Origin: Candidatus Heimdallarchaeota archaeon
Lineage (GTDB): Archaea > Asgardarchaeota > Heimdallarchaeia > Heimdallarchaeales > Heimdallarchaeaceae
Direction: 5' to 3'
NCBI GenBank assembly: GCA_023705985.1
Contig: BPTO01000005.1
Coordinates: 1 to 45,548 of the forward strand
Length of the DNA stretch: 45,548 nucleotides
Each line of letters opens with the position of its first letter. The stretch's first letter is position 1. Below the pieces are notes generated by a model, which did no database searches, was not told where the DNA came from, and worked only from the letters and a program-made list of their open reading frames with translations. This document shows positions 7,254-40,666 of the stretch, piece by piece. A program made the translations under genes and the position numbers.

Positions 7254-7363
7254 GGGGCAGTAGTTTAGTCTGGTCAATGATCGTGGACTGTCAAACGAGT
7301 TACAGCATCTGTAATCAGTGCTGAACTCCATGGACCCGGGTTCAAATCCCGGCTGCCTCGCCA
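7254..7363 (+). tRNA. tRNA-Asp(GTC) with 32-nt intron at 37/38, CCA encoded
   Basis: Exon 1 is 7254-7293, the intron 7294-7325 and exon 2 7326-7363. The acceptor GGGGCAG pairs with CTGCCTC (one G-U), the T arm is CCGGG-TTCAAAT-CCCGG, and G73 is followed by encoded CCA. After splicing the anticodon stem is GTGGA/TCCAT and the loop is CTGTCAC, the conserved tRNA-Asp loop including C38. The intron folds as a bulge-helix-bulge (3' bulge AA|C, 5' bulge CA|A) with an internal hairpin GTTACAG-CAT-CTGTAAT. The central helix carries one U-U mismatch. Confidence 0.9.
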
Positions 7364-17456: not shown

Positions 17457-17611
17457 TGGTGGCTTGGGGGGGTATTTCGCCCTTTTCTTCACGAGCTATA
17501 GAGTTTCGATCCCCCGACCTCAGGATTTCTCATCCCGAGATTTTACTGGCATTCTAGCCCTTTGTTACAAGATTATGAGTCCTGCGCTCTAGCCAGCTGA
17601 GCTACCAAGCC
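17457..17611 (-). tRNA. tRNA with CAU anticodon (Met elongator or Ile2) carrying two introns, CCA encoded
   Basis: Minus strand. Exons are 17574-17611, 17505-17526 and 17457-17473; introns are 17527-17573 (47 nt, position 37/38) and 17474-17504 (31 nt, position 59/60 in the T loop). The acceptor is GGCTTGG/CCAAGCC with A73 and encoded CCA, the D stem GCTC/GAGC, the anticodon stem CAGGA/TCCTG, the loop CTCATAA and the T stem GGGGG/CCCCC. Intron 1 has a perfect bulge-helix-bulge (CTCA/TGAG central helix, bulges TA|A and AA|A). Intron 2 has TCG/CGA plus one A-A mismatch, bulges AA|A and AT|A, and inner helix CTCT/AGGG. The spliced T loop is AUCGAAA. Confidence 0.88.
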
Positions 17612-17629: not shown

Positions 17630-18169
17630 TTATTTCTTTCTAAGGTACTCTTTTACTAACTCCTCACCTTTTCCTATCTTATAACTACAAGGAGTGGGGA
17701 ATCTATCTGATGCTCTTTTTAGTGCATCCAACGCCTCATGATATTTCTCTGGATGGATTCTTACTGTTATCAGTTCTTGTCCAACTTTTACTCTTGCTGC
17801 TCTGTCTGTTGACTTTCCGAAAGATCTTCTCATTCCATCCTGTATTCTGTCAGCTCCAGCTACTGCCATCATTTTATTTTCTCTCAAAATGTGGTGAGGA
17901 TGGATTCTTATTGTCATATGGTAATCGTCTATTCCTATATTTCTTTGCAATTGTCTATTAACAGCTATTCTTGAGGCTTCTAAAGCAGTGTGCCTTATCT
18001 GACATCTTTCTTTTGCCACTAGATGGACATGAACTGGAAAATCACCTTGCCTATTTCCAGCATCATAAGAACGTATTCTTGAGTCTGGAACACCTCTCAC
18101 GAACTTACCTACTCTTGTATTTGCTGGACCTCTTACATGAGTATAACATCTTGCAGGTCTTTTACCCAT
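17630..18169 (-). CDS. rpl10e: 50S ribosomal protein L10e (uL16)
   Basis: 179 aa from ATG 18169. A GTG at 18178 is in frame, but it overlaps the AAGGTGAG Shine-Dalgarno that serves the ATG. MGKRPARCYTHV, KFVRGVPDSRI, FPVHVHLVA, IRIHPHHILRENK and GADRIQDGMRRSFGK are characteristic of the archaeal/eukaryotic L10e family, which lies near the peptidyl-transferase centre and tRNA sites of the large subunit. It follows S7 by 13 bp in the same operon, an arrangement different from the usual S7-EF-1A order. Confidence 0.96.
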   Translation of the reverse strand: MGKRPARCYTHVRGPANTRVGKFVRGVPDSRIRSYDAGNRQGDFPVHVHLVAKERCQIRHTALEASRIAVNRQLQRNIGIDDYHMTIRIHPHHILRENKMMAVAGADRIQDGMRRSFGKSTDRAARVKVGQELITVRIHPEKYHEALDALKRASDRFPTPCSYKIGKGEELVKEYLRKK

Positions 18170-18182
18170 TTTTCTCACCTTA

Positions 18183-40333: not shown

Positions 40334-40666
40334 TTACATTCTTTCTTTTAGCTGTAGATAGATAAACTCCCATATTCCCTTAAACAAACCTTCATTTGAA
40401 ACATTAATTGAAAGCAGAACCATCTTCTCTGTCATCTTTGAAAGTCTTTCTCCCATTCCTCTTACCATTAACTCGTTTTTAATACCAGAAATAAACATAG
40501 TAGATGGTGGTAGAATATCGCTTCCTGGTATGGATAGCCCTATTGTTCCTAGCTTAGGTTCACCCTCATATACATAAATTGAAATTGCATTATCCAAAAG
40601 AAAAGCAAACATTCCAAGATCAATTTCATCAACTTGAAAAATTTTCATAATTATTCTATCATCCAT
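40334..40666 (-). CDS. Proteasome assembly chaperone 4-like (PSMG4/PAC4-like) protein
   Basis: 110 aa from ATG 40666; the frame extends to 40714 but with a hydrophobic 16-residue tail unlike the rest. The pattern is strand-rich, with FAFLLDNAISIYVYEG, IGLSIPGSDILPPSTMF and a late GMGERLSKMTEKMVLLSINVSNEG segment. It follows the layout of eukaryotic PSMG4, whose second half has LAQRLARKTNKQVFVSYNL. It is therefore a candidate chaperone for the 20S proteasome alpha ring. No proteasome gene is in the window; the assignment is by pattern only. It lies 58 bp downstream of folD on the same strand. Confidence 0.62.
   Translation of the reverse strand: MDDRIIMKIFQVDEIDLGMFAFLLDNAISIYVYEGEPKLGTIGLSIPGSDILPPSTMFISGIKNELMVRGMGERLSKMTEKMVLLSINVSNEGLFKGIWEFIYLQLKERM

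Follow-up and report, generated by a model that had tools for sequence, protein, structure and literature searches.

A bulge-helix-bulge intron in the T loop of the elongator tRNA-Met gene of a Heimdallarchaeaceae genome, and T-loop introns across Heimdallarchaeia

An elongator tRNA-Met gene with two introns

We identified an elongator tRNA-Met (CAU) gene interrupted by two bulge-helix-bulge (BHB) introns, one at the canonical position 37/38 and one inside the T loop at position 59/60, in a 45,548-nt stretch of DNA (the window) that belongs to a Heimdallarchaeaceae metagenome-assembled genome (MAG) of 3.6 Mb (387 contigs, ~90% complete; referred to as G000; Table 1). Removing both introns gives a canonical CAU tRNA of 77 nt with normal arms, an acceptor stem GGCUUGG/CCAAGCC, and A73 followed by the encoded CCA end; the predicted spliced junctions are GGGGGAUCGAAACCCCC and CUCAUA|AUCCUG. 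A CAU tRNA with two introns in an Asgard genome had been proposed in a first-pass annotation of the window, and our analysis confirms it, the host being a member of Heimdallarchaeia. The gene is almost certainly real and spliced, the splicing itself being predicted from the sequence. We consider it very probable that the gene is functional and apparently the only one in its genome for elongator tRNA-Met, with two BHB introns that would be cut by an (alpha-beta)2 EndA and exons that would be joined by RtcB, and that the 59/60 intron is a gain of this lineage.

Table 1. Positions of the tRNA gene, its exons and introns, and the neighboring protein gene in the window
Feature	Coordinates	Strand	Remarks
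Elongator tRNA-Met (CAU) gene, interrupted, encoded CCA	17457..17611	minus	155 nt; sequence reading and orthologues
Exon 1: acceptor 5' strand, D arm, anticodon arm up to position 37	17574..17611	minus	sequence reading
Canonical 37/38 intron, strict BHB	17527..17573	minus	47 nt; CUCA/UGAG central helix, bulges UA|A and AA|A
Exon 2: position 38, anticodon 3' stem, variable loop, T stem 5' strand, T-loop 54-59 (AUCGAA)	17505..17526	minus	
T-loop intron at 59/60, BHB	17474..17504	minus	31 nt; motif, shuffle, folding; absent from 21/21 readable family orthologues
Exon 3: A60, T stem 3' strand, acceptor 3' strand, A73, CCA	17457..17473	minus	
Ribosomal protein L10e gene (Pfam Ribosomal_L16, PF00252)	17630..18178	minus	just upstream of the tRNA, same strand

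Three tRNAs with a CAU anticodon were found in G000, whose tRNA inventory was compiled from Rfam matches that were each read individually. The gene described here has G1-C72 and a CAGGA/UCCUG anticodon stem, and lacks the A1-U72 pair and the GGG/CCC anticodon stem, both of which are present in the initiator tRNA-Met (L067); the third CAU tRNA (L076) is Ile2-like, being closest to Ile(GAU). Judged by these sequence features, the gene is elongator Met by elimination.

ARAGORN misses the gene, and so does Rfam at the gathering score; the 19-bit Rfam match spans just 17611-17538. These misses by general gene finders, together with the incompleteness of the MAG, would fit a copy that is decayed or silent, its T arm having been disrupted by a chance insertion, in a genome where another gene supplies elongator tRNA-Met. 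We consider such a copy very unlikely: all stems are intact, the ancestral intron and the synteny with L10e (see below) are retained, and the insert is a BHB at a recurrent intron position. A second elongator-Met gene, including the intact single-intron CAU copy that the first-pass annotation had named as grounds for rejecting its own reading, was searched for at the DNA level and none was found in G000 (~90% complete) or seen in G001, a Heimdallarchaeum genome assembled as a single 3.3-Mb contig. Elsewhere in the window, a tRNA-Asp(GTC) gene (7254-7363) also bears an intron; a tRNA scan with default settings overlooks it, and it is recovered only when introns are permitted.

Structure and register of the T-loop intron

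The two strands of the T stem, GGGGG and CCCCC, lie 38 nt apart instead of 7, and removal of 31 nt at 59/60 restores a seven-base loop; the resulting T arm, GGGGG-AUCGAAA-CCCCC, is the same as that of the G001 orthologue. With the T stem as the outer helix, the insert forms a BHB with bulges AA|A and AU|A, a central helix UCG/CGA (U55-A, C56-G, and G57-C) with one A-A mismatch at position 54, and a four-bp inner helix (CUCU/AGGG). Re-reading thus reproduces the spacing, the excised length, and every detail of the motif as first annotated, and the same is true of the 47-nt intron at 37/38 with its perfect CTCA/TGAG central helix. The T-loop motif has the 3-4-3 arrangement with flanking helices, slightly relaxed by the one mismatched pair among the four central ones.

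When the 31-nt insert was shuffled, ~0.1% of the shuffled sequences attained at least three of four central pairs and all four inner pairs. Folding of the isolated arm with ViennaRNA places the BHB fold 0.7 kcal/mol above the minimum-energy fold, and hence it is not the minimum; this gap is smaller than in many other T-loop introns. Orthologue alignment would allow the insert to be placed at 59/60, 60/61, or 61/62, each giving the same mature product; the latter two registers were dropped, as neither yields a BHB and 59/60 alone does.

The 31 nt could instead stay in the mature tRNA as an enlarged T loop. T-loop bases 54-60 are required for the elbow formed by the D loop and the T loop, which counts against this possibility; in addition, 39 further T-loop inserts of Asgard tRNAs occupy exactly this site, and the pairing of the insert with bases 54-57 is that of an intron. 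Retention of the insert is accordingly a most improbable alternative, and we treat the 31 nt as an intron below.

Orthologues and the age of the two introns

The same tRNA was detected by DNA search in all 22 other Heimdallarchaeaceae genomes compared, and its T arm is readable in 21 of them (in G006 the gene is truncated at the end of a contig). None of the 21 has the insert; since their T loops are uninterrupted and 7 nt long, the insert is private to G000 among the family genomes compared, in which its genus is represented by one genome. The L10e protein of G000 shares at most 85% identity with named Heimdallarchaeota MAGs, and the L10e gene is found upstream of the elongator tRNA-Met in most relatives where the locus holds both (tblastn/blastn searches with both markers). 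That the insert comes from the one genome of its genus would also fit an artefact created when the metagenome bin was assembled; a random error, however, is not expected to make a BHB at 59/60 and an exact orthologous T loop, and we give an artefact hardly any probability.

Every family orthologue whose anticodon region is readable has an intron at 37/38, so this intron is, by its distribution, ancestral in Heimdallarchaeaceae. The sequence AAGGGCUAGA lies inside it and is kept in nearly all orthologues: the word AAGGG[C/T]TAGA is constant in the 37/38 intron of almost every family member, while the remainder varies. It also occurs in the intron of Leu(UAA) in G000 (L069), and is possibly a guide or modification signal.

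We also observed that the elongator tRNA-Met has A54 throughout the family, with the T loop being AUCGAAA, AUCGAGU, or AUCGAGA (17504-17511 and orthologues), whereas the initiator tRNA of G000 has the T loop UUCAAAU. The A54-type T loop of the family's elongator tRNA-Met recalls that of eukaryotic initiator tRNA.

T-loop introns in other tRNAs and genomes

We built a covariance model from seven tRNAs with T-loop introns and used it to search the family genomes as well as 228 genomes from the phylum. At least 40 T-loop inserts were read at 59/60 in Asgard tRNAs, these counts being lower bounds (the model leans to Ala, and part of the matches was read). They fall into nine amino-acid families (Phe, Ala, Lys, Gln, Thr, Pro, Asn, Arg, and Met), with the isotype assigned from the anticodon as read by eye. 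T-loop bases 54-57 pair perfectly (4/4) with the intron in 35 of 40 inserts. At least 18 of the 23 Heimdallarchaeaceae genomes have one or more T-loop introns, and four genomes from outside the family (G028, G081, G177, and G178) contain further ones, besides the elongator-Met cases of G039 and G040 (see below). The first-pass annotation had regarded a T-loop intron as surprising here, such introns being known mainly from Thermoproteales; the surprise shrinks because 59/60 introns are widespread in Heimdallarchaeia, and T-loop introns are a common, not an exotic, feature of this group.

Several other tRNAs of G000 contain introns or inserts at non-canonical positions. For example, Ala(CGC) (L072; contig C33, 21207-21312, minus strand), whose plain Rfam score is under the cut-off, also has a 31-nt intron at 59/60, whose 4-bp central helix is fully paired. 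The Ile2-like CAU tRNA (L076; contig C1, ~40529-40662, minus strand) has a 32-nt intron in the D stem at 23/24, with four of four central pairs, besides an intron at 37/38, and Gly(GCC), the second tRNA on L009, has an intron at 29/30, also with four of four central pairs. Ser(GCT) (L065) has an insert in the D arm that no single clean BHB register fits.

Splicing enzymes

G000 encodes two EndA-type proteins, alpha and beta, and RtcB. The alpha protein falls in the size class of about 180-200 aa and keeps the Tyr/His/Lys catalytic triad; its closest solved relatives are the crenarchaeal alpha subunits 3p1z, 2zyz, and 2cv8. In the beta protein, which resembles the EndA of M. jannaschii and M. 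kandleri more, the catalytic His is not conserved at the aligned position in either G000 or its relatives, the active site being degenerate. The likely assembly of the two is (alpha-beta)2.

The alpha protein contains a loop with the conserved Lys of the Crenarchaea-specific type: its VRKPKSED aligns to VEKPRGAD of A. pernix, with KPK opposite K44-P45-R46 and a one-residue gap, and the aligned alpha proteins of two relatives retain the K and the P, with N or Q at the third loop position. The loop is absent from M. jannaschii EndA, in a comparison over the part of this protein covered by the search alignment. Residues K44-P45-R46 of A. pernix have been linked both to cleavage and to broad specificity (PMC12397907, PMC6379350). 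Because the Heimdallarchaeaceae EndA alpha carries the aligned loop (L115/L169 on contig C177 of G000, and L102), this loop, which was thought to be Crenarchaea-specific, is on the alignment not restricted to Crenarchaeota. The intron had been taken at first to imply a splicing endonuclease tolerant of relaxed motifs, and an inspection of the EndA type had been recommended. The motif does not on its own imply such an enzyme, because it is nearly strict (3-4-3, with one A-A mismatch); the enzyme itself is nevertheless of the type associated with broad specificity, to judge from the crenarchaeal-type loop of its alpha subunit.

We propose that the transcript of the elongator tRNA-Met gene bears the two BHB introns, that the heterotetrameric (alpha-beta)2 endonuclease would make its cut behind the second nucleotide of each bulge, and that RtcB would then ligate the exons.

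Origin of the T-loop intron

The lineage leading to G000 most likely acquired the 59/60 intron itself, probably from a stock of T-loop introns found repeatedly in tRNAs of different isotypes in these archaea. The introns of Phe, Pro, and Thr share a GATGCGTTCTGAA-like core, with alignment z values of 4.9 to 7.2 against shuffles, and this likeness across isotypes recalls the intron transposition described for Thermoproteales (PMC4090602). For the elongator-Met intron, no convincing relative was found as a source among the 37 other T-loop introns aligned (best z ~3). Its 3' strand CGAA, which faces A54 here, is a perfect complement of UUCG, and this hints at a donor with U54.

In the order, the elongator tRNA-Met of G039 and G040 (both from another family) has a 59/60 T-loop intron, and that of G028, G035, and G036 has none; since the latter three lack it, the simplest reading of this distribution is a separate gain in G039/G040. 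A broader scenario, which we put forward tentatively and hold to be somewhat less probable than its contrary, is that mobile T-loop introns have been colonising the tRNA genes of Heimdallarchaeia, passing between isotypes, alongside an EndA with the Crenarchaea-type loop; the elongator-Met intron would then derive from a donor with a UUCG loop, and the A-A mismatch would be a scar of this transfer.

Comparison with known systems

Position 59/60 is already on the published list of archaeal tRNA intron sites (PMC4090602); the position is thus known in archaea, and the elongator-Met gene of G000 is a newly found case. The non-canonical BHB introns of Crenarchaeota/Thermoproteales (PMC4090602) share with it the 59/60 position, the BHB anatomy, the presence of several introns per tRNA, and an (alpha-beta)2 EndA, whereas the host here belongs to Heimdallarchaeia and A54 gives an A-A mismatch in the central helix. 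Likewise, the crenarchaeal (alpha-beta)2 EndA enzymes (A. pernix 3p1z/3ajv, P. aerophilum 2zyz) are, among solved structures, the closest to the G000 alpha subunit and share K44 and P45 with it, but the host of the latter is an Asgard archaeon.

Within Asgard archaea, tRNA introns at non-canonical sites, with more than one intron per gene, have been published for Atabeyarchaeia and Freyarchaeia (PMC11291895); these are other classes, and the accessible part of that report gives no detail on T-loop introns or on elongator-Met. We found no published description of T-loop introns in Heimdallarchaeia, in a search that lay mostly outside the subscription literature. Among eukaryotes, Cyanidioschyzon merolae and the Guillardia theta nucleomorph have multi-intron tRNAs, with introns in the T arm as well as the D and anticodon arms of a single tRNA, including an elongator-Met with three introns in the G. 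theta nucleomorph, where introns can be as short as 3 nt (PMC4090602, PMC9602550).

Overall, an essential tRNA gene in Asgard genomes can escape simple scans. The crenarchaeal-type EndA loop, found here in a group near eukaryotes, bears on the published view that the analogous loop of TSEN was acquired independently. T-loop introns, known from Crenarchaeota, are extended by these results across Heimdallarchaeia, in many isotypes and with one probable recent gain.
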